Shown here piece after piece: positions 10,897 to 26,230 of a stretch of 64,000 bases of DNA (the stretch's first letter is position 1; each line of letters begins with the position of its first letter). This stretch comes from Methylomonas methanica MC09 (lineage in GTDB: Bacteria > Pseudomonadota > Gammaproteobacteria > Methylococcales > Methylomonadaceae): positions 3,224,001 to 3,288,000 of the forward strand of contig NC_015572.1 in NCBI RefSeq assembly GCF_000214665.1, read 5' to 3'. A program made the position numbers and the translations under genes. The notes under the pieces were generated by a model that saw nothing but the letters and a program-made list of their open reading frames with translations, did not search any database and had not been told where the DNA came from.

Positions 10897-11289
10897 TCAC
10901 TCCACAAAATCGTAAACCTGATATTTCTCCACCATGGGACGCAACACATCCTTGGCAATCCGGCCATACGTCGGATTTTTCAAAAATGCTTCAAACGCCG
11001 CCTGATTTTCAAATACACTGGCTATCGCCACATCGTAGGATTCATCCAACACTGAGCGACTGTGCCGCCGCTTGACGCGAGCCGGGCGGCCAACGTCGTA
11101 AGCCAACACGCCGGGTAACTCGGCCAGCGGTTTGCTTTCATCGATATAACGCTGCCTGAGACTTTCATCCCCCGGTTTATTTAACCAAACCACCACTAGA
11201 TGATGTAAACGCTGCTGCGATTCTATTGGGTTAGCGGCGCAACCGGATAAGCAAACAGCCAACATCAACGGCAACATTCTGGCTATCAT
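10897..11289 (-). CDS. small lipoprotein with Dabb-like (stress-responsive A/B barrel) domain
   Basis: A 130-residue predicted lipoprotein. The signal MIARMLPLMLAVCLSGC ends in a clear lipobox (LSGC). The rest resembles the dimeric alpha/beta barrel (Dabb) family: LHHLVVVWLNKPGD at the start, a central VLDESYDVAIASVFEN, and a terminal YQVYDFVE. The function of Dabb proteins is generally unknown. Its ATG overlaps the stop of the upstream thioredoxin-fold gene as ATGA, so I prefer it over an in-frame codon 12 bases upstream. The two are translationally coupled. Confidence 0.72.
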   Translation of the reverse strand: MIARMLPLMLAVCLSGCAANPIESQQRLHHLVVVWLNKPGDESLRQRYIDESKPLAELPGVLAYDVGRPARVKRRHSRSVLDESYDVAIASVFENQAAFEAFLKNPTYGRIAKDVLRPMVEKYQVYDFVE

Positions 11290-11849
11290 GCCGCCTTCCA
11301 TTTGATATTGCAGCCAATACTGGGAATCTGCTCGGCGGCAACGGGTTGGCCGGCCAACAGATTATCCAGGGCATTGCGCAAATCCTGGCCCGAAACCGGT
11401 AGTTCATTTTTGGGCGTGGAACCGTCCAACCGCCCCCGGTAAACACAGGCCAGCTTGGCGTCGAATAAATAAATATCCGGGGTACAGGCCGCTTGATAGG
11501 CTTTGGCCACCGCTTGGCTTTCGTCATACAAATAGGCGGCGAACGGATTGCCCCATTCGGCCATTAACTCGCGCATTTTGTCCGGCGCATCCATCGGGTA
11601 ATTTGCAATATCGTTAGAACTAATCGCAATGCTCGAAACACCTAAATTGGCATATTGCTGGGCGATGGCGATCAATTGCTGCTTAACATGCAGCACATAA
11701 GGGCAATGGTTACAGATAAACATGACCACGGTACCCCGTTCGCCTTTCAGTTGTTGCAGACCCATTTGCTGTCCGCTGATGGTGTCCGGTAAATAAAAAT
11801 CCGGCGCTAACGTGCCTAAAGGCAACATGTTGGAAGGGGTGGCGGCCAT
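11286..11849 (-). CDS. thioredoxin-fold (AhpC/TSA-like) protein
   Basis: A 187-residue protein of the peroxiredoxin/TlpA-like superfamily. The N-terminal PLGTLAPDFYLPDTISG and the CNHCPYV redox motif (VVMFICNHCPYVLHVKQQL) place it in the widespread CNHCPYV subgroup annotated as thioredoxin-family proteins. A CTPDIYLFD segment with the cis-Pro follows. The frame opens 75 bases further upstream, but the ATG at 11849 has a strong GAGGAGAG ribosome site. It lacks a signal peptide, so it is probably cytosolic. The substrate is unknown. It is divergent from the large signalling gene at 11970. Confidence 0.8.
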   Translation of the reverse strand: MAATPSNMLPLGTLAPDFYLPDTISGQQMGLQQLKGERGTVVMFICNHCPYVLHVKQQLIAIAQQYANLGVSSIAISSNDIANYPMDAPDKMRELMAEWGNPFAAYLYDESQAVAKAYQAACTPDIYLFDAKLACVYRGRLDGSTPKNELPVSGQDLRNALDNLLAGQPVAAEQIPSIGCNIKWKAA

Positions 11850-11969
11850 AAACTCTCCTCGGGTAATCGCGATAAAACCCGGATTATAAAACAGCACCCG
11901 GACTGGTTTTACCCCAAAAATCACTTTACTATGAAAGACTCAATCCGTATTCCAAGGCAGGTATAGCAG

Positions 11970-14900
11970 ATGATTGGCCACTATCACAATAATGTGCAAC
12001 TGCAGGATGCCCCACGCTTAAACAATTACGTTATCACCGAAAAATTGGGCGAAAGCCTGCAAGCCACGGTTTTCAAGGGGTTTCACAAACATGTGCCGGA
12101 TTACCCGCTGGTCATCAAATGCCTGAAACTGCTGTCCAGCTGGGAAGACCAGTCCCGGCATTTACGCCAAAAAGTCGAACGCTTAAAAGTATTGCACGAC
12201 CCGCGCATTTGCACCCCGCTAACCTTGGAAAGCGGCGAGGACCATCAATTTATCGTGCAACCCTGGTTTGGCGGCCTGCCGCTGAATACCTGGGCAACCG
12301 GCCAAGCCCATATCGAACTAAGCGATTTTCTCGGCTTGGCCTGCGCACTGGCCGACACCCTGCAAACCGTGCATGATGCCGGCATCACTCACGGCGGTGT
12401 CAAACCGCATAATATCTTGGTACTGCCGGATTCCCTGAGCATACGCTTGACCGACTTCATCACCCCTTTGGACATACGCGACGTCAGCCATTTTATTTAC
12501 GACCCGGAGTTCGTGCGTAACACCCTGGCCTATACCTCGCCGGAGCAAACCGGCCGCATCAATTACCGGGTGGATTTTTCCACCGACTTATATTCGCTGG
12601 GTATCGTGTTTTACGAATTGCTGACCGGCAGACTGCCGTTTTTTTCCTCCGACCCGCTGGAACTGATTCATTCGCACTTGGCGGAAGAAGCCCGCAAAGC
12701 GCATATCGTCAATCCGGATATCCCCCCTACCCTGGCTGAAATCATTCACAAACTGACCTTGAAACAGCCGGAAAAACGCTATCAAAGCGCCTCGGGCTTA
12801 TTAGCGGATTTAAGACGCTGTCAGGAAGAATTCCAAAAACACGCCTGCATTTCCAACTTTGCCATTTGCCAACACGACCTGAGCCGACGGGTGATTTTTA
12901 TCTCCAAAATGGTCGGCCGTCTGGCGGAAAGTGCCTTGATACACCAGGAATACCAGCACGTGATGTCCGGGCAATTTCGCTCGGCATTCATTTCCGGCTT
13001 ATCCGGAATCGGCAAAACCCGTTTGATCCAGGAACTACAGAAACCGCTGGTTAAAAATCGCGGTTATTTCACCTCCGGCAAATTCGATCAGTACCAAAAA
13101 AACATTCCTTACAGCTCCTTCATACAAGCTCTGCGCAATTTGATCCGCACCTTTCTCACCGAAAGCAACGAGCAGGTCGGGCAGTGGCGGCATAAAATCC
13201 TCGAAGCCGTGGAAAACCAGGGTGGGGTGATTATCGATGTGGTGCCGGAGCTGGAATTTATCATCGGCCCGCAACCCGACCCCGTGCAGTTACCGCCGGT
13301 GGAAGCACGCAACCGGTTCAACAATTTATTCGGGCGCTTTTTGGCCTGTCTGGCCAGCGAGAACAATCCGCTGGTATTGTTTATCGACGATCTGCAATGG
13401 TGCGATACCGCCACGTTCGACTTTCTGCAAAACTTGTTTGCCAATCATCGCGAGCACCCTTATTTGTTTTTCATAGGCGCTTACCGCCACAACGAAGTGG
13501 ACTCGGCCCATCCCTTGAGTAAATTGATCAACACCGTCCAGGATAATGCGGGACCTTTGGTGGAAATTCGGCTGGACGCCCTCAGCGAAACCGATTGTCA
13601 TGAAATGGTGGCCTATATTCTCGATTCAGAGCTGGCCTCTACCGTGCAACTGGCGCACTTTATCGCCGACTTGACCGAGGGCAACCCCTTGTTCGTCAGC
13701 GAAAGTCTGGCCTGGTTGTATAACGAGGGCCTACTCAGTACCGATGACGACCTGCACTGGATCTGGGATATACAACGTATCCGCGACACCCAAATGCCGG
13801 CCAGCGTAGTGGAATTATTCAGCGCCAAAGTGCAAAAACTGCCCGGCAAAACCCTGCATATCCTCAACCATTGCGCCTGCATGGGTAACCGCTTTACCGC
13901 CGACGACGTGGCCTTGGTGATGGACATACGCATCGAACAACTGTTTGAGGATTTGAAGCCGGTACTCAGTTTGAGTTTATTGCTGGAAAACAAATCCGAC
14001 CTGCAATTCGTGCACGACAGAGTCCAGGAAGCCGTGCTGCGTCAGGTCGACAGCCAAACCCGGCCGGCCATTCACTGGCGCATAGGCAACCGACTGTTCC
14101 AAGCCATGGCACACTGTGCCGATCTTGAAAACCTGGACAATCTATTCACCATCGCCGCACACCTCAATCAAGGCCGCCCGAACAACCTGGATACCGCAAC
14201 GATTTTCCGGCTGGTAGACATTAATTACCACGCCGGCAACAAGGCGCTGGCGGCACTGGCCGGCGAAGCCGCCAACCAGTTCTTTCTGCAGGCCCACGAT
14301 TATCTGCCGGACGATAGCTGGGAAACAGCTTACGAGCTGAGCTTTCGCATTCATCAGCGGCTGGCCAAAACCAGCCTGATGTGCGGGAACTACGAGCAAT
14401 CGGAAACATTACTCAATCATTTGATCGAACATGCCGTCAGCGATCTGGACAAAGCAGAAGCCCTGGCCGACCAGACCACCTCGTTATCCTCGTTCGGCAA
14501 CTTCAATCTAGCCATCCTGACCGCCAACCGAGGCCTGGCCTACTTTGAAAAATCGATTCCGACCGATGCCGATCGGGCCCGGCAACGGATGCTGGCATTG
14601 ATGGCGCAAATCCAGCAACAAGGCGATGTCTGGCAAACCATTTTGCGCATGCCGTTTACCCGGGAGCGTAAAAGTAAAATCGAACTGGCCTTTTACAGCG
14701 AACTGATCCCGGACCTGTATATGTGCGGTCTGGTGCCGCAACTGTATTTATCGGCGGCGCAATCCACGCTGCATTGCCTCGAAGGTGGCATGGACGAATC
14801 GGTGATTTATTCGTTCTCCATCATGGGCCTGAATCTCGGCGAACAGGGCCGCTTCGACGAAGCCTTTAAATACCAGGATCTGGCGCACGACCTGTGTGCC

Positions 14901-17102
14901 AAATATCCCAATACCTTTGGCGCCACACGCGGCATGAACGGCATCGTCTGGTGCAACATGCACAGCCGCAGCCATCCGGCGGCTATCGTCGATTATGCGT
15001 ATAAAGGCATACAGTGCGGCAAAAATTGCGGTGATCTGTATAACGCCGGCCTGTCTTACGGCCCGCTGATGTGGAACTTAATGGTACAGGGCAAAAACCT
15101 GCGCAGGTTGGAAGAAGCCGCGGAAGAATGCCTGCAATTTTCCCATAAAAACCAACTGTCCTTCTCTGTGGGCTTGGCCGAAGCCGTACTGGCGGGCTGG
15201 GTACAGCCGATGAAGCCCGATTATCAACCCATCGATATGACGGCCACATTGCAGCGCTGGACCACCGATAATTATGTCGCGGCATCCGGCAGCTATTATG
15301 CGTTGCTGGGCTTCGCCCAGTATTTTTTGGGTGAATACCGGGCAGCCGCGCAATCTTTGCAACAGGTGGAGGATTACCTGCACGGCATGACCGACAACGT
15401 TTTAAAAAGGCTGTGGGTTGTATTCAAAATTCTGATTCGCCTGCGCCAGCCGGAACAACTGGACTGGCCGGAAATAGATGCCGAAATCAACCCTTTGCTG
15501 AGCAAATTGGAAACCTGGGCCAAACTGGGGCCTTTATTACAGCCTTATCTGGCCTTCATTCGGGCGGAAATCGCCCTGCAACAAGGCTTTTACCGGGAAG
15601 CGCGCAACTTGTATTTCGATGCCATCGCCCTGGCTCAGGCACAACAATACGGCTTGCTGAGCGGGCACTTATACGAAATGCTGGCCGATTTATTAAACGA
15701 ATACCTCTTGGGCGATGCCGAATTATATTACACCGAGGCCCGCCGTCACTACCGTCTAAGCCGGGCGGACGGCAAAAGCCACCGGCTGCAGAGCCGGCAT
15801 CCTTATGTCAGTAGAGACACGACAACGCGCGGCACCCGCAACGAGGTATCGCATGAAACGCTGCCCAGCCTGGATATCAATTACTTGATGAAATCGGCTT
15901 TGGCGCTATCCGCGGAAATCGACTTAACCCAATTGATGCAAAAAATCATGGCCGTGGTTCTGGAGAGCTCTGCCGCCCAACATGGTTACTTGCTGATCGA
16001 ACAAGGCGAAAAATTATTTGTCTGCGCCGAGCAAGATGTCGGCAAAAAACAATTTCCCCAAAAATCGGCCTATTCCTTCCATAAGACTCGCGGCATTTGC
16101 CGGGCTATCGTCAATTACGTACATCGCACCCATGCAAAAGTGGTTTTACAGGATGCGATGAATTGCGGAGACTTTCAAAATGCCCCGGAAGTGCAAAGCC
16201 TAAAACTGCGTTCCGTATTATGTTTGCCCATCATCAAGCAATCTGAATTTATTGGTCTACTCTATTTAGAAAACCGTTTATCCGAAGGCGTGTTCACCAT
16301 GGAAAAAATCAGTATGACCGAACTACTGACCGCACAGGCGGCTATTTCCCTGGAAAACGCCAAGCTGCTGGAACAAACCCGACTGGCTTATCTGCAATTG
16401 CAGGAAAACCAGGAACACATGCTGCAAATGGAAAAGCTCTCCGCCATGGGCACCCTGGTAGGCGGCGTGGCGCACGAAATCAACAACCCCTTGATGGGGG
16501 TGATGAATTTCGTGGAATTCGTCGCCGATCGCACCGATGATCCGAAATCCAAGCAAATTCTTGAGCAAGCGCTGCAACAAATCCTGCGCATCAAAAAAAT
16601 CGTTTCCAATATGCTGGTGTTCATGCGCGGCAAATCCACGACCGCCGGGCATTGCTCATTTTCCGAGGTACTCGACCAAACCCTGTTGCTGCTGGAAGGC
16701 GAACTGCGCAAAGCGGCTATTCCGGTTGAAACGCAACTACCGGAAAATCTGCCGGATATTGCCTGCCCCGCCGAATGCCTACAACAGATTTTAGTCAATT
16801 TACTGATCAATGCCCGCGACGCGTTGCTGGATTCGGCGCAACCTAAAATAGAGATTGTCGCCGTACGCAAGAAACAAACACTGACTGTCTCAATTAACGA
16901 CAACGGCCCCGGCATTAGCCAGGAGATTCAAAATCGCATGTTCGATCCGTTTTTTACCACGAAAGCGCCCGGCAAAGGCACCGGCCTGGGTTTATCGGTT
17001 ACCCGCCGGCTGATACAAGACAGCGGCGGCTCGATCGCAATTGACAGCCAACCTGGGGCAGGCTGTCGGATTCGGGTGAATTTCCACATTTTCGATAGCT
17101 AA
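11970..17102 (+). CDS. giant kinase-like/ATPase/GAF/histidine-kinase hybrid with degenerate kinase catalytic loop
   Basis: A 1710-residue cytosolic signalling protein. Residues about 19-290 have a Ser/Thr-kinase fold with VIK Lys50 and DF at 162-163. The HRD catalytic loop reads HGGVKPHN (141-148), with Gly143 where the catalytic Asp should be, so this domain may be a pseudokinase. An AAA-type ATPase follows: Walker A GLSGIGKTR (Lys349) and Walker B LVLFIDDLQWCD. A long helical, TPR-like region covers about 650-1280. A GAF domain lies at about 1320-1470. The histidine kinase has AHEINNP (His1502), N-box NLLINARDAL, DNGPGI and GKGTGLGLSV. This architecture is a known multi-domain class (PknB-AAA-GAF-HK). 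The receiver-KaiB gene follows after 67 bases and is its likely phosphotransfer partner. Confidence 0.9.
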   Translation: MIGHYHNNVQLQDAPRLNNYVITEKLGESLQATVFKGFHKHVPDYPLVIKCLKLLSSWEDQSRHLRQKVERLKVLHDPRICTPLTLESGEDHQFIVQPWFGGLPLNTWATGQAHIELSDFLGLACALADTLQTVHDAGITHGGVKPHNILVLPDSLSIRLTDFITPLDIRDVSHFIYDPEFVRNTLAYTSPEQTGRINYRVDFSTDLYSLGIVFYELLTGRLPFFSSDPLELIHSHLAEEARKAHIVNPDIPPTLAEIIHKLTLKQPEKRYQSASGLLADLRRCQEEFQKHACISNFAICQHDLSRRVIFISKMVGRLAESALIHQEYQHVMSGQFRSAFISGLSGIGKTRLIQELQKPLVKNRGYFTSGKFDQYQKNIPYSSFIQALRNLIRTFLTESNEQVGQWRHKILEAVENQGGVIIDVVPELEFIIGPQPDPVQLPPVEARNRFNNLFGRFLACLASENNPLVLFIDDLQWCDTATFDFLQNLFANHREHPYLFFIGAYRHNEVDSAHPLSKLINTVQDNAGPLVEIRLDALSETDCHEMVAYILDSELASTVQLAHFIADLTEGNPLFVSESLAWLYNEGLLSTDDDLHWIWDIQRIRDTQMPASVVELFSAKVQKLPGKTLHILNHCACMGNRFTADDVALVMDIRIEQLFEDLKPVLSLSLLLENKSDLQFVHDRVQEAVLRQVDSQTRPAIHWRIGNRLFQAMAHCADLENLDNLFTIAAHLNQGRPNNLDTATIFRLVDINYHAGNKALAALAGEAANQFFLQAHDYLPDDSWETAYELSFRIHQRLAKTSLMCGNYEQSETLLNHLIEHAVSDLDKAEALADQTTSLSSFGNFNLAILTANRGLAYFEKSIPTDADRARQRMLALMAQIQQQGDVWQTILRMPFTRERKSKIELAFYSELIPDLYMCGLVPQLYLSAAQSTLHCLEGGMDESVIYSFSIMGLNLGEQGRFDEAFKYQDLAHDLCAKYPNTFGATRGMNGIVWCNMHSRSHPAAIVDYAYKGIQCGKNCGDLYNAGLSYGPLMWNLMVQGKNLRRLEEAAEECLQFSHKNQLSFSVGLAEAVLAGWVQPMKPDYQPIDMTATLQRWTTDNYVAASGSYYALLGFAQYFLGEYRAAAQSLQQVEDYLHGMTDNVLKRLWVVFKILIRLRQPEQLDWPEIDAEINPLLSKLETWAKLGPLLQPYLAFIRAEIALQQGFYREARNLYFDAIALAQAQQYGLLSGHLYEMLADLLNEYLLGDAELYYTEARRHYRLSRADGKSHRLQSRHPYVSRDTTTRGTRNEVSHETLPSLDINYLMKSALALSAEIDLTQLMQKIMAVVLESSAAQHGYLLIEQGEKLFVCAEQDVGKKQFPQKSAYSFHKTRGICRAIVNYVHRTHAKVVLQDAMNCGDFQNAPEVQSLKLRSVLCLPIIKQSEFIGLLYLENRLSEGVFTMEKISMTELLTAQAAISLENAKLLEQTRLAYLQLQENQEHMLQMEKLSAMGTLVGGVAHEINNPLMGVMNFVEFVADRTDDPKSKQILEQALQQILRIKKIVSNMLVFMRGKSTTAGHCSFSEVLDQTLLLLEGELRKAAIPVETQLPENLPDIACPAECLQQILVNLLINARDALLDSAQPKIEIVAVRKKQTLTVSINDNGPGISQEIQNRMFDPFFTTKAPGKGTGLGLSVTRRLIQDSGGSIAIDSQPGAGCRIRVNFHIFDS

Positions 17103-17169
17103 TTAACGGCATTCCCTGGATAATTGCGAATAATTCGCATCCAAATTACCTAGCACTGAGTAAACGTAC

Positions 17170-17871
17170 ATGTTAAACAATATTTTGGTCATAGATGACG
17201 ACCCGGCGGTTCGGGGCGCATTTAAGCTGATACTGGAAGAAGAAGGCTACGTCGTCCGTGAAGCCGAAAACGGCCTGCAAGGCCTGGAAATGGTCGAGCG
17301 GGAACGGCCCGACCTGGTTTTCCTGGATCTGCGCATGCCCGGCATCGATGGTGTGGAAACCTTACGCCGCCTGAAAGCGATCCATCCCGACCTGAATATC
17401 TATATTGTCACCGCCTTCGCCGCCGAGTTCATGGAGCAATTAAAATCCGCCCATGAAGAAGGCTTGCAATTCGAACTGGCCAGCAAACCCCTGTCCGCCT
17501 CGCAAATCAGAAATATCGCCCAGGTCGTCCATGTCGCCAAAACTCAGGAGGCCAGACGCGCCAACCACCATAAGCTGGTACTCACGCTGTATGTGGTTTC
17601 GCTGAATACGGAAACCCGCCGCATGGTGGAACAAATCAGCGCCCTGCTGGCCGGCATTTACGAGCCCGGCCATTGGGTATTTGATGTGATCGAAGTGCTG
17701 GGCATGCCGGAAAAGGCTTTGGAAAAAGAAGTGTTCGCCACCCCTATGCTGGTACGCGACATCCCGGAACCGGTGTTGAAACTGCTGGGCGACCTGTCCC
17801 GCATGTCATCGGTCATGGCGGCCATCACCACGCAAACCCAAGGCACAGGTGTTCAAACCATCATTATTTAG
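17170..17871 (+). CDS. response-regulator receiver fused to a KaiB-like domain
   Basis: A 233-residue fusion. Residues 1-125 form a CheY-like receiver with the acidic pocket at Asp9/Asp10, phospho-acceptor Asp53 (FLDLRMPGIDG), Thr81 and Lys106 (ASKP). Residues about 134-222 match the circadian-clock protein KaiB. The strand KLVLTLYVV, then VFDVIEVLGMPEKA, the ATPML motif corresponding to KaiB ATPTL, and IPEPVLKLLGDLS all align in order with KaiB. No DNA-binding or enzymatic output is present, so signalling presumably runs through KaiB-type protein contacts. No kaiC lies in the window. It is the middle gene of an operon, 67 bases after the sensor kinase and 14 before a GGDEF-EAL gene. Confidence 0.88.
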   Translation: MLNNILVIDDDPAVRGAFKLILEEEGYVVREAENGLQGLEMVERERPDLVFLDLRMPGIDGVETLRRLKAIHPDLNIYIVTAFAAEFMEQLKSAHEEGLQFELASKPLSASQIRNIAQVVHVAKTQEARRANHHKLVLTLYVVSLNTETRRMVEQISALLAGIYEPGHWVFDVIEVLGMPEKALEKEVFATPMLVRDIPEPVLKLLGDLSRMSSVMAAITTQTQGTGVQTIII

Positions 17872-17885
17872 ACTCCCGTTATAAC

Positions 17886-20258
17886 ATGGCCGACACCCTA
17901 AAACGACTCAGCCTGATCCTGAATACCATCACCGACGGCATTCTGGTAGTCGACTTACAGGGGATTGTACTGTACGCCAATCAGGCTGCGGAACAACTGC
18001 TCGAACGCCCCGGCATTGTTGGCCAATCGCTGGCCATTCCGATCACTACCAATACTTCGCTCCCGCAAGACATCAACCTAATCAGGCCCAGCGGCTTAGC
18101 CTGGGCCGAAATGCGCTCGGCTCCGCTGGATTGGGAGGGAGCAAAAGCTTATGTTATCGGCTTGCGCGACATCTCCGCCCGCAAGGACGCCGAGCTGGCC
18201 CTGCAACAAAGCGAAACCTTATTTCAAACGCTGGCCAGACTGGCACCTGTGGGCATTTTCAAAACCGACGCCTCCGGCAAATGCGAATACGTCAATCAGC
18301 GCTGGTGCGATATCAGCGGTTTGGATGCGGAAACCGCGCTCGCTGACGGTTGGACCGGCTCGATTGCCGTCGAAGACAGTGCGCGGGTGCGGGAAGAATG
18401 GGCCCGGTCTATTCAAACTCAGATCCCGTTCTACAGCCAATACCGGTTTCAGCACAAAAACGGCCCGCTGCACTGGGTAGTCGGGCGTGCGGAAGCGGAA
18501 TACGACGGCAATAACCGGCTACTCGGTTTTATCGGCACGATCACGGATATCAGCGAAATAAAACGCAACGAAGAGCATTTGCGTCTGGCGGCCGCAGTCT
18601 TTGAAACCACTCGCGAAGGCGTCATGATTACCGACGCCAATCGCAACATCCAACGAGTTAACCGCGCGTTTACCCAAATCACCGGCTACAGTCAATTTGA
18701 AACCTTGGGCAAAACGTCCAATCTGTTACGCTCCGGCCGTCATTCCGACGCGTTTTACGAAGCGATGTGGGACGAGATTATCCACACCGGGCATTGGCAG
18801 GGCGAAATCTGGAACCGGCGTAAAAACGGCGAGATTTATCCCGAGCTATTGAGCATCAGTACCGTCAAGGATTCGAATGGCGAAATTTGCCATTATGTCG
18901 GGGTGTTTGCCGACATCTCCAAATTAAAAGCCTCCGAGCAGGAACTGGAGTTTTTAGCCCACCACGACCCGCTCACCAAGTTGCCCAACCGCGTATTGCT
19001 TATGTCCCGGCTACAACACAGCATCTCGCAAGCGCAACGCCAACACAGCCAATTGGCGGTAGTGATGCTGGATTTGGACCGTTTCAAGGATGTGAACGAC
19101 AGTTTCGGCCATCTGGCCGGCGACGATTTATTGCAATCGGTTGCCCGGCGCCTGACTGCCCGCTTGCGGGCCGCCGATACCGTTTGCCGGTTGGGCGGCG
19201 ATGAATTTGTCGTGCTGCTGGAAAACATCGCGCACCCGGAAACCGCCGCCCGCATTACCACCGACATTATCGCCGCCATCAACGAACCGTGGCATTTGAG
19301 CAACGGTAACGCCGTGAGAGTCGGTGCCAGCATCGGTATTGCCCTGTATCCGGAGCATGGCGAGGCTCCGGCGGAGTTATTGCAACATGCCGATACCGCG
19401 CTTTACCAAGCCAAGAATGAAGGGCGCAACTGCTTTAAATATTTTTCGGAAGAACTAACCCGCGCCGCCCGGGAACGCATCGGTATCGAATTCCGACTGC
19501 GCCAAGCCATCGAAAATAATGAGTTCAGAGTGTTTTATCAGCCGCAACTGGCAATCGGCAGCGGCGAAATTATCGGTGCGGAAGCCTTAATACGCTGGCA
19601 AACCGCCGGCGGCGAATTGATACCGCCGCTAAAATTTATTCCGATTGCCGAAGAAACCGGCTTGATCTCCAACATCGGCAACTGGGTGTTGAAAGAGGCT
19701 TGCCGGCAAGGTAAAGAGTGGCTGGATGCCGGATTGCCGCGTATCCGCATCGCGGTAAACCTGTCGACTCACCAGTTTTTGCATAGCGATATTTGCGCGA
19801 TCGTGGCAAACACCCTGGCGGAAACCGGCTTTCCCGCCGACTATCTGGAACTGGAACTGACCGAAAGCGCCCTGATGAAACGCGAAAAAGAAGCGATCGA
19901 CATTTTAAACCGCCTGCATGAACTGGGTACTCATCTGGCCATCGACGATTTCGGCACCGGTTATTCATCGCTGGCCTATTTAAAATCGTTTCCGCTGGAC
20001 ATCCTTAAAATCGATAAAAGTTTCATCGACGACATTCCCATGCAGAACGACGACATGGAAATTACCGCCACCATTATTGCCATGGCCAAAACCCTACGCA
20101 TGCAAGTGATTGCCGAAGGCGTGGAGACCCCCGCGCAAATGGCCTTTCTAAGCAGCCGCAACTGCGATTTTTATCAAGGTTATTTCGCCAGCAAACCCTT
20201 GCCCGCCGATGAATTTGCCGCCTTTTTAAGGCAACACGTACCGGACCCGGTTTACTGA
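17886..20258 (+). CDS. PAS-GGDEF-EAL c-di-GMP enzyme
   Basis: A 790-residue cytosolic protein with three PAS-type domains (about 1-110, 110-235 and 240-360), then a GGDEF domain and an EAL domain. GGDEF is intact at 437-441, and an RAAD inhibitory site sits five residues before it. EAL is intact at 566-568 (EALIRWQ), with LELTES and DDFGTGYSSLAYL also present. Both diguanylate cyclase and phosphodiesterase activity are therefore possible; which dominates cannot be read from sequence. No membrane segments are seen. Its start is only 14 bases after the receiver-KaiB gene, so it is a likely output of that pathway. Confidence 0.93.
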   Translation: MADTLKRLSLILNTITDGILVVDLQGIVLYANQAAEQLLERPGIVGQSLAIPITTNTSLPQDINLIRPSGLAWAEMRSAPLDWEGAKAYVIGLRDISARKDAELALQQSETLFQTLARLAPVGIFKTDASGKCEYVNQRWCDISGLDAETALADGWTGSIAVEDSARVREEWARSIQTQIPFYSQYRFQHKNGPLHWVVGRAEAEYDGNNRLLGFIGTITDISEIKRNEEHLRLAAAVFETTREGVMITDANRNIQRVNRAFTQITGYSQFETLGKTSNLLRSGRHSDAFYEAMWDEIIHTGHWQGEIWNRRKNGEIYPELLSISTVKDSNGEICHYVGVFADISKLKASEQELEFLAHHDPLTKLPNRVLLMSRLQHSISQAQRQHSQLAVVMLDLDRFKDVNDSFGHLAGDDLLQSVARRLTARLRAADTVCRLGGDEFVVLLENIAHPETAARITTDIIAAINEPWHLSNGNAVRVGASIGIALYPEHGEAPAELLQHADTALYQAKNEGRNCFKYFSEELTRAARERIGIEFRLRQAIENNEFRVFYQPQLAIGSGEIIGAEALIRWQTAGGELIPPLKFIPIAEETGLISNIGNWVLKEACRQGKEWLDAGLPRIRIAVNLSTHQFLHSDICAIVANTLAETGFPADYLELELTESALMKREKEAIDILNRLHELGTHLAIDDFGTGYSSLAYLKSFPLDILKIDKSFIDDIPMQNDDMEITATIIAMAKTLRMQVIAEGVETPAQMAFLSSRNCDFYQGYFASKPLPADEFAAFLRQHVPDPVY

Positions 20259-21076: not shown

Positions 21077-24000
21077 ATGGACTGGCAAAGCTTCTTAAAC
21101 CGCTGTTGCAGCCTGGATCTGGAAACCAACGAAAACGGCGATATTTTCGCCATCGCCGCTCAGTTTAGGGGCCAGACATTTCAGCGCAAAACACCTCTTA
21201 AGATTCATCGGGTTCTGCGCGAACTGAATGCCTTTGCCGCCGGCGCCGATTTCCTGCTCGGTCACAATCTGTTAGGCCACGACCTGCCGGTGTGCCGAGC
21301 CATCCTGCCTGATCCGGCCTGCTTGAACAAGCCGGTAGTCGACACGTTGTTCCTGTCGCCGCTGGCGTTTCCGGGAAACCCCTATCATCGCTTGGTCAAA
21401 AACTACAAACTGGTACGCGACGGCCTGAACGATCCGCTGCTGGATGCCAAACTGGCTGAATCTTTATTCCAGGATCAATGGGTTGCACTCAAGGAACAAC
21501 AGCAAGACCGCGATATTCTGTCGTTTTACCACTATGCCTTTTCCGGCGACCCGCGGTATGCCGGCCTGCAACACACGTTCGCCGAACTGGGTGCGGACAA
21601 CATCAATGCCTCGCGGGCCTTCGATTTGTTCAAGCAACTCAGCCGCGGCCAAGTCTGCGAAACCGCATTCAATAAAATCATCCTCTCTTACCTGCCCGAC
21701 CCGCACAAACGCCCTGCCCTGGCCTATTGTCTGGCTTGGCTGCGGGTGGCCGGCGGCAATTCAGTGCTGCCGCCCTGGGTACGCCAGAGTTTCCATGATG
21801 TTGCGCCGGCCTTGCGGCAGTTGCGCGATATTCCCTGCGGTAATCCCGGCTGCGCTTACTGCCGGCAAACTCACGACCCGATTGCGCAATTGAGCTGCTA
21901 TTTCGGCTTCCCGGCCTTTCGCAATGAGCCGCCGGCCGCCGACGGCGGCAGTTTGCAGCAGCAAATCGTGCAGGCCGCGATGAGCGATAGCCCACTGTTT
22001 GCGGTGCTGCCGACCGGCGGCGGCAAATCGCTGTGCTTTCAACTGCCGGCCCTGGTACGTTACCAACGCCGGGGCGTACTCACCATCGTCATTTCGCCCT
22101 TGCAGGCTTTGATGAAGGATCAGGTCGACAACTTGCGCAACAAAACCGGCGCGCCCAGTGCCGCCGCGCTGTACGGTATGTTGACACAGCCGGAACGCGG
22201 CGAGGTGTTGAAAGCCATACAAATGGGCGACATCGCCTTGCTCTATGTGTCACCGGAACAGCTACGTAATTCGGGCTTTCGCAAAGCCATCGCCCAGCGC
22301 GAAATCGGCTGCTGGGTCTTCGACGAAGCCCACTGTCTGTCCAAATGGGGCCACGACTTCCGGCCGGATTATCTGTACGCCGCCCGCTTCATCCAGGAAT
22401 TCGCCGCCGAACAAAACGCCGTCCTGCCGCCGGTGCAATGCTTCACCGCCACCGCCAAACAGGATGTACGCGACGAAATCCTCGACTACTTCCGCGCCTA
22501 TCTGGCGCAAGAGTTGGCGGTATTCGAAGGCGGCGTCGAGCGCGACAATCTGCAATTCGAGGTGCAAACCATCGGCGGCAACGAAAAATTCGCCCGCATC
22601 CATCAATTACTCAGCGAGCGTCTGGAGAATGCCGACGGTAGCGCCATCATTTACTGCTCCACTAAAAAGCACACCGAAGAAATCGCCGAATTTCTCTGCC
22701 TGCAAAACTGGCAAGCCGCCGCCTTCCATGCCGGCAAGGACGCCGCGGAGAAACGTCATGTACAGGAAAGCTTCATAGACGGCGGCATCCGGGTGATCGC
22801 CGCCACCAACGCTTTCGGCATGGGCATAGACAAAGACAACGTGCGTTTGGTGATCCATGCCGATATTCCCGGCTCGCTGGAAAACTATCTGCAGGAGGCC
22901 GGCCGGGCCGGCCGCGACCGGGAAGCCGCCGAATGCGTGTTGCTGTTCGACGAACACGACATCGAAACCCAATTCAAATTGTCCGCCCTGTCGCAAGTCG
23001 ACCAACGCGACATCGCCCAGATTCTGCGCGGCCTGCGTCGCGGCAAGAAAGATAAAAACGGCAACGTGGTCATCACCAGCGGCGAAATCCTGCAGGACGA
23101 TAACGTGGAAACCTCCTTCGACAGCGACGACCGTAACGCCGCCACCAAGATCATCACCGCCGTATCCTGGCTGGAACGGGCCGGCTTTATCGAGCGCAAC
23201 GAGAACCGTACCCAGGTCTTCCAGGGCCGGCCGTTGGTCAAGGACCTGGGCGAAGCCAAGGCCAAAATCGAAAAACTGGGGCTTTCGCAACGCCAGCAAA
23301 AACGCTGGCTGGCGATTTTGGAAGAATTGTTCAACGCCGACAGCGACCAAGGTTTCAGTGCCGACGACCTAGCCTTGCTGGGCGAATTCGCCCCGGATCA
23401 CGCCGATAAACCTGGCGAAACCGCCAGCCAGCGGGTAATACGCACTTTGTACGACATGACTGAACGCGGACTGATCCAGCAGAACCTGTTGTTGACTGCT
23501 TTCGTGCGCTACAAGATCGCCGAATCGTCGTTAAACAGATTGGAAAAAATCTGCCCGCTGGAACGCGCCATGATAGAAGCCATGCGCGAACAAGCCCCGG
23601 ATGCCGCCGCAGACAACTGGCAGATACTGTCGTTGCGGCATGTCAATCAACACTTGCTGGATCACGGCTACAGCCTGAGCAACCCGGAAGTGCTACGGCT
23701 GCTGCTGAACAGTCTGGCCCGCGACGGTTTGGGTCTGGCCGGCAATAAAGGCAGCCTGACGCTGCGGCATCGCGGCCTGGATCAATATGCCGTCAAACTC
23801 AATCGCGGCTGGCCGGCTTTAATCGCCACCGCCGAAAAACGCCAAGCCATCGCCAAGATTGCGCTGGACCGCATTCTGGCCAACATCCCGCCGGACACCA
23901 AGCCGGCCGCCGACCTGCTGGTGGAATTTTCCGCCGAACAATTGATGGCGGCGCTGCGGCAGGATCTGGTCGCCGCGGCGGAAGTAAAAGATCCGCTGGC

Positions 24001-26230
24001 GGCGGTGGAGCGGGCGCTGAACTTTCTGCACGAACAAAAAATCATCACGCTGCAACAAGGGCTGGCGGTGTTTCGGCAGGCCATGACCATCCGCGTGCTG
24101 CCGGAAGCCAAAGCCCGCCGCTACGGCAAGGGCGATTACCAACCGCTGTCGCAGCATTACAGCGAGCGGGTGTTTCAAATTCATGTCATGAACGAATACG
24201 CCCGCCGCGGCCTGGAAAAAATCGGTCAGGCCCTGGCATTCGTGGTGGCCTATTTCGCAATGGACAAGACCGAATTCGTCAAACGCTATTTCGCCGACCG
24301 CCGCGAGGTATTGGAGCGCGCCACCAGCCAGCAATCCTTTCAACGCATCGTCAGCGACTTGCAAAATCCCGAACAAATCGCGCTGGTGGCCGGTGCCGAA
24401 GACAAAAACAGCTTGATCCTGGCCGGCCCCGGTTCCGGTAAAACCCGGGTCGTGGTGCATCGTTGTGCTTATCTGCTAAGGGTAAAACGGGTACCGGCCC
24501 GCAGCCTGTTGATTCTGTGTTTCAACCGCAACGCCGCCGGCGAATTGCGCCGCCGTTTAAGCGATCTGATCGGCGACGACGCCAAGGGCGTCACTATCCA
24601 GACTTACCACGGACTGGCCTTACGGCTGACAGGCCATGCCATAAATCATAACCCCGGTCAAACCGAAACCCTGTTTGCGGACATCATCGAAGATGCCATT
24701 AATCTATTACAAGGCACACAATCGCTGCTGGGCGTGGAAGCCGACGAAAGCCGCGAGCGCTTGCTGGCCGGTTACCGCTATATTCTGGTCGACGAATATC
24801 AGGATATAGACGCCCAACAATACCGGCTGATTTCCGCCATTGCCGGCCGCACCCTGGAAGACGACGCCAAGCTGAACATCCTGGCTGTGGGCGACGACGA
24901 TCAGAATATTTACCAATTTCGCGGGGCCAACATCGGGTTTATCAAACAGTTTCAATCCGATTATCAGGCCCAGCAACATTATCTACTGGAAAACTACCGC
25001 TCCAGCGCGCACATCATTGCCGCCGCCAACGCCTTGATCGGCCACAACCGCGACCGCATGAAACAACAGCAACCGATTCGTATCAATCGCCAACGCGCAA
25101 AACTGCAGCCCGGCGGTCGCTGGCACCACCTGGATACGCTGGCGCGCGGTCGGGTACAGCAAATCGAGGTCGCGAACTTGAGCAGGCAAGCGGCGACGGT
25201 AGCACATGAACTGCAACGCCTACGGCAATTGGACCCCAGCCTGGAGTGGCCGCAATGCGCCATCCTGGCCCGCGAATGGCGTTTGCTGGATTCGGTGCGC
25301 AGCGAACTGGAACAGCTCGCAATTCCGCTCAGCATCATGCTGCCGGAAGAAGCCAACCCCAGCCCGTTCCGCATCCGTGAATACGCCGATCTGCTGCAGG
25401 CCCTGCAACTGGCCGGTAACGCCTTAAATACCGCCTCGTATTGGCTGGATTATCTGGCTGATAAATACTCGCCCGCCGTTGACAATAGCTGGGTTTATCA
25501 GCTGCAAAACCTGTTGCTGGACTGGCAACGGGAGACTCAGGACGCCGAGTTAAGTAACCGGCAAACCCTGGACTACCTCTGCGAAACTATGGCCGAACAA
25601 CGCCGCGAACGCCGCTTGGGTAACGGCGTATTGCTCGGCACCGTACACGCGGTCAAAGGCATGGAGTTTAACCATGTATTCATTCTGGACGGCGGCTGGA
25701 ACGCGCGGGACTTGGAGGAACAACGCCGCCTGCTGTACGTGGCAATGACCCGCGCCAAGGAAACCCTGTGCCTGCTGCAACGCCGGGATTCGCATAATCC
25801 GTTTTTGGGGGAAATTCAGGGCGAACATTTGCTGGTTAGAACGGCGCCGGAACTGCCTGTACCAGTAGAAAACCACGAACGAATTTACCAGATCCTCAGT
25901 TTAAAAGAACTGAATATCGGCTACGCCGGCAGCTTTGCCGCATCCCATCCTATCCATAGTCAACTGGCAAACTTGCAACCGGGCGACGAATTAACCATGG
26001 TCAATCACCACGGCAAACTCTGCCTGCAAGCCAACGGCACAACGATAGCGTGTTTATCGCAAGCGGCCCACGATCTCTGGCAACAGCGGCTAAATCGCAT
26101 CGAACGCATTAGCATCATCGCCATACTCAAGCGTTACCACGACGACGGCAGCGCAGAATACCAAGGCCGCAGCAAGGTCGAGACATGGGAAGTGCCGCTG
26201 GTGGAAGTGGTGTACCGAACACACCGATAA
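21077..26230 (+). CDS. exonuclease-RecQ-UvrD fusion helicase
   Basis: A 1717-residue DNA-processing protein with two helicase engines. The N-terminal ~200 residues look like a DEDD-type 3'-5' exonuclease: LDLETNENGD (Asp14, Glu16), GHNLLGHDLPV and LLDAKLAESLF. From about 290 to 650 is a RecQ-type SF2 helicase with LPTGGGKS (Lys317), FDEAHCLSKWGHDFRPDY (Asp416) and YLQEAGRAGRDREAAE. From about 1090 to 1640 is a UvrD/PcrA SF1 helicase: AGPGSGKTR (Lys1122), VDEYQDIDAQQYRL, GDDDQNIYQFRG, GTVHAVKGMEFNHVF and LYVAMTRAKE. The gene is unbroken. Similar giant RecQ proteins exist in other Proteobacteria, but their role is not established. Repair or mobile-DNA restriction are both possible. Confidence 0.9.
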   Translation: MDWQSFLNRCCSLDLETNENGDIFAIAAQFRGQTFQRKTPLKIHRVLRELNAFAAGADFLLGHNLLGHDLPVCRAILPDPACLNKPVVDTLFLSPLAFPGNPYHRLVKNYKLVRDGLNDPLLDAKLAESLFQDQWVALKEQQQDRDILSFYHYAFSGDPRYAGLQHTFAELGADNINASRAFDLFKQLSRGQVCETAFNKIILSYLPDPHKRPALAYCLAWLRVAGGNSVLPPWVRQSFHDVAPALRQLRDIPCGNPGCAYCRQTHDPIAQLSCYFGFPAFRNEPPAADGGSLQQQIVQAAMSDSPLFAVLPTGGGKSLCFQLPALVRYQRRGVLTIVISPLQALMKDQVDNLRNKTGAPSAAALYGMLTQPERGEVLKAIQMGDIALLYVSPEQLRNSGFRKAIAQREIGCWVFDEAHCLSKWGHDFRPDYLYAARFIQEFAAEQNAVLPPVQCFTATAKQDVRDEILDYFRAYLAQELAVFEGGVERDNLQFEVQTIGGNEKFARIHQLLSERLENADGSAIIYCSTKKHTEEIAEFLCLQNWQAAAFHAGKDAAEKRHVQESFIDGGIRVIAATNAFGMGIDKDNVRLVIHADIPGSLENYLQEAGRAGRDREAAECVLLFDEHDIETQFKLSALSQVDQRDIAQILRGLRRGKKDKNGNVVITSGEILQDDNVETSFDSDDRNAATKIITAVSWLERAGFIERNENRTQVFQGRPLVKDLGEAKAKIEKLGLSQRQQKRWLAILEELFNADSDQGFSADDLALLGEFAPDHADKPGETASQRVIRTLYDMTERGLIQQNLLLTAFVRYKIAESSLNRLEKICPLERAMIEAMREQAPDAAADNWQILSLRHVNQHLLDHGYSLSNPEVLRLLLNSLARDGLGLAGNKGSLTLRHRGLDQYAVKLNRGWPALIATAEKRQAIAKIALDRILANIPPDTKPAADLLVEFSAEQLMAALRQDLVAAAEVKDPLAAVERALNFLHEQKIITLQQGLAVFRQAMTIRVLPEAKARRYGKGDYQPLSQHYSERVFQIHVMNEYARRGLEKIGQALAFVVAYFAMDKTEFVKRYFADRREVLERATSQQSFQRIVSDLQNPEQIALVAGAEDKNSLILAGPGSGKTRVVVHRCAYLLRVKRVPARSLLILCFNRNAAGELRRRLSDLIGDDAKGVTIQTYHGLALRLTGHAINHNPGQTETLFADIIEDAINLLQGTQSLLGVEADESRERLLAGYRYILVDEYQDIDAQQYRLISAIAGRTLEDDAKLNILAVGDDDQNIYQFRGANIGFIKQFQSDYQAQQHYLLENYRSSAHIIAAANALIGHNRDRMKQQQPIRINRQRAKLQPGGRWHHLDTLARGRVQQIEVANLSRQAATVAHELQRLRQLDPSLEWPQCAILAREWRLLDSVRSELEQLAIPLSIMLPEEANPSPFRIREYADLLQALQLAGNALNTASYWLDYLADKYSPAVDNSWVYQLQNLLLDWQRETQDAELSNRQTLDYLCETMAEQRRERRLGNGVLLGTVHAVKGMEFNHVFILDGGWNARDLEEQRRLLYVAMTRAKETLCLLQRRDSHNPFLGEIQGEHLLVRTAPELPVPVENHERIYQILSLKELNIGYAGSFAASHPIHSQLANLQPGDELTMVNHHGKLCLQANGTTIACLSQAAHDLWQQRLNRIERISIIAILKRYHDDGSAEYQGRSKVETWEVPLVEVVYRTHR

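Follow-up and report, generated by a model that had tools for sequence, protein, structure and literature searches.

Outside the cyanobacteria, kaiBC operons followed by a gene for a histidine kinase or a GGDEF/EAL protein have been described (De Luca et al. 2011; PMC3164672), and an excerpt of PMC5520375 claims that bacterial KaiB occurs only with full-length KaiC. Cyanobacterial KaiB, once fold-switched, uses its strand beta-2 to bind the CikA pseudo-receiver (PMC6378743, in part). We analyzed a 64,000-nucleotide stretch of the Methylomonas methanica MC09 genome (NC_015572.1, positions 3,224,001 to 3,288,000; here, the window), in which a receiver fused to a KaiB domain is encoded between a giant sensor histidine kinase and a PAS-GGDEF-EAL enzyme predicted to act on cyclic di-GMP (c-di-GMP). 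A first-pass annotation, made from the sequence alone, had read these as a three-gene operon with gaps of 67 and 14 bases, built around a receiver-KaiB fusion and ending in a c-di-GMP enzyme. Open reading frame (ORF) coordinates and Pfam bear this out: three ORFs of 1710, 233 and 790 amino acids lie head to tail on the + strand with these gaps, the second has Response_reg and KaiB domains, and the third has PAS, GGDEF and EAL. A simple sequence scan found no promoter-like or terminator-like site in either gap.

We surveyed 301 genomes of the order Methylococcales (genomes are given G numbers below, and loci L numbers). Forty-six of them, the host included, carry the full fusion at E <= 7.1e-64; the next match (1.4e-37) is a receiver without KaiB in frame. 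In 40 of the 46 loci, the gene immediately before the fusion encodes a complete giant kinase. The remaining six have the kinase cut by a contig end (G281, G228 and G248), no upstream giant kinase found (G167 and G123) or a different kinase (G108). The three-gene order, which the first-pass annotation could not place in any described system, is kept exactly, with a complete giant kinase, the fusion and a GGDEF-EAL gene, in 27 of the 46 loci. Neighborhood counts for G113, G090 and G249 were taken by tblastn. Since gene order is conserved across orthologous loci, we rejected a chance neighborhood of the three genes.

Gene 2 is recognizable in both halves. Pfam gives Response_reg with E 3.8e-26 and KaiB (PF07689) with E 1.2e-7, at 31.8 bits against a cut-off of 27, and all 46 orthologs pass this cut-off. 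Residues 136-220 match KaiB chains in the PDB by sequence (best 5jwq_B, E 3.7e-9), and the closest named relative is a Methylomonas protein (94%). Asp9, Asp10, Asp53, Thr81 and Lys106 are kept in 46/46 orthologs, as expected of a response regulator; three of these (Asp53, Thr81 and Lys106) had already been picked out in the first reading. On the KaiB side, the TP of the turn, the LG and the proline triad of the fold-switching half are equally invariant (46/46). When the full-length gene 2 model was used in a structure search (VIA), the matches listed were all to the receiver, and the KaiB half was therefore modeled by itself. By structure comparison this predicted model has the KaiB fold, and AlphaFold2 gives the isolated domain the thioredoxin-like, fold-switched order. 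Ground-state KaiB entries are absent among the matches listed for the KaiB-half searches, which excludes nothing. The AF-Cluster marker positions, Arg68/Asp83/Arg84 of KaiB-RS according to an excerpt of PMC10808063, seem to depart from the fold-switched type in the fusions; with the register set by hand, the KaiB of gene 2 reads Val, Ala and Ala there. A thioredoxin-type redox role of KaiB was rejected because the CxxC active site occurs in 0/46 fusions.

The first reading had seen no kaiC in the window, and a genome-wide search agrees. The host genome is a single 5.05-Mb contig with a completeness of 100%; its one PF07689 match is gene 2, and no KaiC was recognized in it with PF06745 and TIGR02655. 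The best PF06745 frame, 457 amino acids long and read from its length as RadA-like, scores 47 bits (70 with a neighboring match), and TIGR02655 reaches only E 6e-5; most KaiCs adjoining a KaiB in relatives score roughly 250-630 bits, against these 47-70 in the host. We therefore rejected the idea that the fused KaiB acts on a distant KaiC in the host genome. Across the order, 13 of the 46 fusion genomes have a KaiC above 100 bits; of the 43 genomes that have KaiB but lack the fusion, 40 do (Fisher test, p 2e-10, descriptive only, since related genomes are treated as independent). All 13 fusion genomes with KaiC have a separate KaiB close to it on the same contig. One of the 33 others, G228, has weak KaiC-like matches, and G300, one of the three KaiC-less genomes with free KaiB only, carries a split receiver-KaiB locus (L051). 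Fusion genomes mostly without KaiC run against the claim in the excerpt of PMC5520375, though genomes of one order are not independent. In a search of 72,556 plasmid records, 12 match the KaiB query and no place covers 80% of it.

Gene 3 has the residues of a putative bifunctional c-di-GMP enzyme. Pfam finds PAS, GGDEF (E 2.3e-52) and EAL (E 1e-74), and the cyclase and phosphodiesterase residues (GGDEF, EAL, DDFG, KID, EGVE) are kept in all rows with letters there, 31-32 of the 33 GGDEF-EAL rows, one row being a 3-residue fragment only. The Arg and Asp of the I-site are kept in 31/32 rows. Across the 46 loci, gene 3 is a GGDEF-EAL gene in 33 and a PAS-histidine kinase in 11, with the N-terminal PAS at all 44; the remaining 2 have no gene 3.

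This PAS domain connects the module to kaiBC operons. Eight genomes of the order have a KaiC above the curated cut-off, and in 8/8 the gene that follows kaiB-kaiC aligns collinearly with gene 3, at 37-40% identity, over the stretch that runs from the N-terminal PAS to GGDEF; EAL is present in five and is absent in three (L063, L101 and L104). Two of the eight, G212 and G248, also carry a receiver-KaiB operon. A search of these genomes and the host with gene 3 residues 1-112 gave 11 matches, 8 in kaiBC operons and 3 in receiver-KaiB operons, with no match elsewhere in the nine genomes. At loci with another, lower-scoring KaiC type (L057-L059, L061, L062 and L064-L066), this PAS is absent or scores at most 13 bits. 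A PAS profile run on 23 genomes gave 25 matches of at least 74 bits, 20 of them no more than 5.5 kb away from a KaiB; the next match reaches only 50 bits. Strong matches occur in 17 of the 19 KaiB-bearing genomes searched. Seven of the KaiB-bearing genomes gave no row to the profile; five of these have strong matches, seven in total and all within 5.5 kb of a KaiB. The gene 3 PAS is thus genomically linked with KaiB. Since kaiBC and receiver-KaiB operons have it in common, it offers itself as a direct candidate for the partner through which non-cyanobacterial KaiB acts on its output.

Related arrangements were seen along the way. At L060:2815-8114 and L063:3051-7583 the order is protoglobin, KaiB, KaiC and PAS-GGDEF(-EAL); the protoglobin beside the Kai pair is a possible oxygen- or gas-sensing input. 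At L067:7258-12239, L068 and L069, KaiB stands beside a PAS-GGDEF-EAL protein with no KaiC nearby. The L067 protein has 1557 amino acids and also CheB and CheR domains, and the KaiBs of L067 and L068 are without two of the three fold-switch prolines.

Gene 1 has the kinase-like, AAA, GAF and histidine kinase domains first assigned to it, with one correction: the kinase-like part is without the HRD aspartate, the motif reading HGG in 40/40 giant kinases of the ortholog alignment. Because of this, and because DFG reads DFI, the domain is probably a pseudokinase; an active Ser/Thr kinase at the N terminus was rejected on the missing aspartate. Of the eight other kinase-like places matched in the host genome, seven were examined; five of these have an HxD motif and two gave no motif. 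Key residues of the H, N, G1 and G2 boxes and of Walker A and B are kept in 40/40 giants.

The first-pass annotation had also supposed that receiver-KaiB fusions may exist elsewhere, and they do. We scanned a species-genome collection with the receiver-KaiB alignment and two short peptide patterns and kept the best 80 of 309 relatives, which represent 79 loci. Home-made profiles found 72 receiver-KaiB pairs in 70 of these loci, about half from Methylococcales, 52 of them fused and 20 as neighboring genes; of the other nine loci, six have a receiver without KaiB (L170, L172-L174, L179 and L182) and three a KaiC instead (L180, L184 and L187). A histidine kinase lies at most 1 kb upstream on the same strand in 55/72 pairs, and a GGDEF-EAL gene at most 1 kb downstream in 33, or divergently in 9. 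No KaiC was found in the neighborhoods of the 72 pairs, up to 7 kb on each side. Methylomonas sp. LW13 (L131), a laboratory methanotroph, is among those with all three genes. By record titles, fused forms outside the order come from Gallionella, Comamonadaceae, Rhodocyclaceae, Anammoxibacter, Dehalococcoidia, Planctomycetota and Lentisphaerae, and split forms from Marinimicrobia, Rhodospirillaceae, Desulfobacteria, Omnitrophota, Aminicenantes, Melainabacteria, Legionella massiliensis and others. We searched 34 receiver-KaiB genomes for KaiC, one of them (that of L113) from the order and many of them metagenome bins whose completeness is not known: 3 score above 300 bits, 3 score 64-127 bits, and in the other 28 no match exceeds 26 bits. 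Exactly one KaiB match is present in 29 of the 34, and the three genomes with strong KaiC have two further KaiBs close to it. A tree of receiver-KaiB sequences has weak inner supports, and beyond its main clade five fused sequences are intermingled with split ones (supports 29-96); it allows for differing numbers of fusion or fission events. The alignment A4 does not include L171.

Several loci depart from the simple pattern. At L123:6995-8429, the giant kinase and the GGDEF-EAL gene are separated by two receiver-KaiB fusions in a row. In Methylomonas sp. LL1 and a relative, a second locus (L050:7220-8393; L051:864-1971) has a receiver, half a KaiB fused before another receiver, and a free KaiB, which looks like the product of a rearranged receiver-KaiB tandem. 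The Anammoxibacter genome G313 (L155/L166) has eight KaiB matches, two of them receiver-KaiB fusions by the home-made profiles, and no KaiC match. At L180:7330-8157, L184:2478-3305 and L187:7330-8157, what comes after a kinase-receiver pair is a KaiC-like ATPase with a single domain and about 276 amino acids (Pfam for L180 only).

Given this architecture, its conservation, the lack of a recognizable KaiC, the intact catalytic residues and the PAS-KaiB link, we propose a KaiC-free module in which receiver phosphorylation controls the docking of the KaiB domain on the PAS of a c-di-GMP enzyme, a proposal that we believe and doubt in equal measure. The pseudokinase, AAA, TPR-like and GAF part of the giant histidine kinase would sense a cue, and the kinase would autophosphorylate on His1502 and pass the phosphate to Asp53 of the receiver-KaiB protein; the adjacency of the giant kinase in 40/46 loci gives this transfer genomic support only. 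Phosphorylation of Asp53 would then determine the freedom of the attached KaiB and might also influence which of its two folds this domain adopts. Because the CikA pseudo-receiver binds beta-2, the fused receiver could cover or free that strand of KaiB according to its phosphorylation. Free, thioredoxin-like KaiB would dock on the N-terminal PAS of gene 3, the shared KaiB-linked domain being the likeliest docking site on the output enzyme, and tip the enzyme's balance of c-di-GMP synthesis and breakdown; at 11 of the 46 loci its target would instead be a histidine kinase headed by the same PAS. We thus infer the phosphotransfer, the control of KaiB by the receiver, the docking and the effect on c-di-GMP. 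In an excerpt of PMC13001216, c-di-GMP is reported to alter the Synechococcus clock, an analogy that is suggestive only for this module.

Several observations weigh against the proposal. Gene 3 is missing in 2/46 loci, and in two Methylomonas genomes (G024 and G060; L198 and L199) it stands without KaiB. Five of the 25 strong PAS matches are away from KaiB (one each in G024 and G060, one at G304:C124 and two at G326:C710), and 2 of the 19 KaiB-bearing genomes have no strong match: G319, Legionella massiliensis, and G331, of the Desulfobacteria. The profile was also partly searched against its own sources, since 12 of the 23 genomes had supplied rows. In the full-length gene 2 model, the C-terminal half of KaiB is weak (block means 39-66), with a low-confidence, ground-like order there. 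Four KaiB-less genomes were searched with the profile; G024 and G060 have a match, and G116 and G015 have none. In G024 and G060, gene 3 lies between the same redoxin and rpe neighbors and genes 1 and 2 are both missing, so these two perhaps come or go together in one event.

The KaiB domain might instead be a passive leftover kept for dimerization or stability. The receiver alone would then act, whether through contact with the kinase or as a phosphate sink, and gene 3 would answer to ligands of its own PAS. Gene 3 can indeed stand alone, and the surface of the fused KaiB has changed. Lateral contacts of the KaiB ring pair TE Arg23/Lys26 with Glu84/Asp91 (PMC6769508, in part); both acidic positions are lost in 46/46 fusions, and both sides are kept in 0/46, but also in only 2/10 free KaiBs, which makes this a weak control. 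The fusions also carry Leu (45) or Val (1) at a position where the compared clock KaiBs have Arg. A mere remnant would hardly keep the TP, the three prolines and the LG invariant, or recur with a receiver, fused or adjacent, across phyla, and we consider this explanation unlikely.

The same prolines could serve a KaiC-free timer, in which slow, proline-limited KaiB switching is gated by receiver phosphorylation and works as an hourglass that delays the c-di-GMP response. Isomerization of the three prolines makes KaiB fold switching slow (PMC11551320, in part), and the two predicted orders, fold-switched for KaiB alone and ground-like at low confidence in the full-length protein, would suit such a device. 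However, a change of alignment alone can flip the AlphaFold2 result for KaiB, as a passage of PMC10808063 has it, and we regard the timer as very improbable. Least credible to us is that KaiB acts upstream, docking on the giant kinase at its P-loop AAA domain, much as it does on the RecA-like CI ring of KaiC, and feeding back on the kinase. Both are P-loop ATPases, and the key Walker residues are invariant in the giants, but fusions outside the order and the Methylovulum locus L037/L113 have other, shorter kinases (histidine kinase frames of 343-1126 amino acids), and the L037 kinase, the one scanned with Pfam, is without an AAA domain.

If docking on the PAS is taken further, the phosphorylation-controlled module may represent a second, widespread lifestyle of KaiB, as a phosphorylation-gated, fold-switching domain of two-component systems that does without KaiC and talks to a KaiB-binding PAS on c-di-GMP enzymes or kinases. 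We offer this tentatively, and doubt it somewhat more than we believe it; if true, the KaiB-PAS output would be shared by two inputs, one of them the kaiBC of some bacteria. That the unit sits in a KaiC-less genome, with relatives in many bacterial groups, suggests that KaiB can work without a clock. The fusion may also be a naturally occurring example of a metamorphic protein under phosphorylation control.

Coordinates of the features are collected in Table 1. On the - strand, a divergent redoxin/AhpC-TSA gene (11286-11924) adjoins gene 1; by greedy ORF listing, a homolog is the second gene upstream of the fusion in 16/46 loci. Farther along, at 21077-26230 on the + strand, a single protein chain of 1717 residues is half RecQ-like DEAD helicase and half UvrD-like helicase.

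Table 1. Features of the receiver-KaiB locus, in window coordinates
Feature	Position	Strand	Basis
Gene 1: sensor histidine kinase, 1710 aa (amino acids)	11970..17102	+	ORF and Pfam; kinase-like, AAA_16, TPR-like middle, GAF, HisKA, HATPase_c
Ser/Thr-kinase-like domain, probably pseudokinase	12027..12785	+	HRD reads HGG, DFG reads DFI, VAIK Lys kept; Pfam and 40/40 orthologs
AAA_16 P-loop ATPase domain, Walker A and B intact	12909..13475	+	Pfam, residue alignment
GAF domain	15921..16352	+	Pfam
HisKA and HATPase_c; phospho-acceptor His1502 (VAHEINNP)	16446..17084	+	Pfam, residue alignment
Gene 2: receiver-KaiB fusion, 233 aa	17170..17871	+	ORF, Pfam, PDB sequence match
Receiver domain with Asp9, Asp10, Asp53, Thr81, Lys106	17182..17514	+	Pfam, residue alignment
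KaiB domain, residues 135-222 (Pfam match 148-212); Pro192, Pro199, Pro201 = proline triad	17572..17835	+	Pfam, PDB match, fold model, alignment
Gene 3: PAS-PAS-PAS-GGDEF-EAL enzyme, 790 aa	17886..20258	+	ORF and Pfam
KaiB-associated N-terminal PAS domain, residues 1-112	17886..18221	+	Locus survey, PAS searches, profile
GGDEF domain with GGDEF and RxxD I-site	18957..19430	+	Pfam, residue alignment
EAL domain with EAL, DDFG, KID, EGVE motifs	19494..20198	+	Pfam, residue alignment

Databases already list proteins with a receiver and a KaiB domain, in part under the names 'KaiB-like protein' or 'Circadian clock protein KaiB', which means that the fusion itself has been seen before. Among the papers listed by our searches of the open-access literature, none deals with a KaiC-less receiver-KaiB module or with a KaiB-linked PAS. 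Two-component c-di-GMP systems have a histidine kinase, a receiver and a c-di-GMP enzyme in one cluster. The locus is like them in this clustering, but its receiver carries KaiB rather than an enzyme or DNA-binding domain. The Legionella pneumophila KaiB Lpp1115 (PDB 4kun), reportedly described by Loza-Correa et al. in 2014, is said to lie in an operon with kaiC and to have no receiver fused to it; gene 2 differs. Like the non-cyanobacterial kaiBC operons, as far as they are described in the excerpt of PMC3164672, the locus has a KaiB next to a PAS-GGDEF(-EAL) protein; unlike them, it has a histidine kinase and a KaiB-fused receiver in the place of KaiC. As in SasA (PMC6378743 and PMC12632262, both in part), a thioredoxin-like domain of KaiB type is part of a two-component protein, but here it sits on the response regulator and not on the kinase. 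Unlike the pseudo-receiver of CikA, finally, the receiver fused to KaiB keeps the phosphorylatable Asp53, which pseudo-receivers lack.

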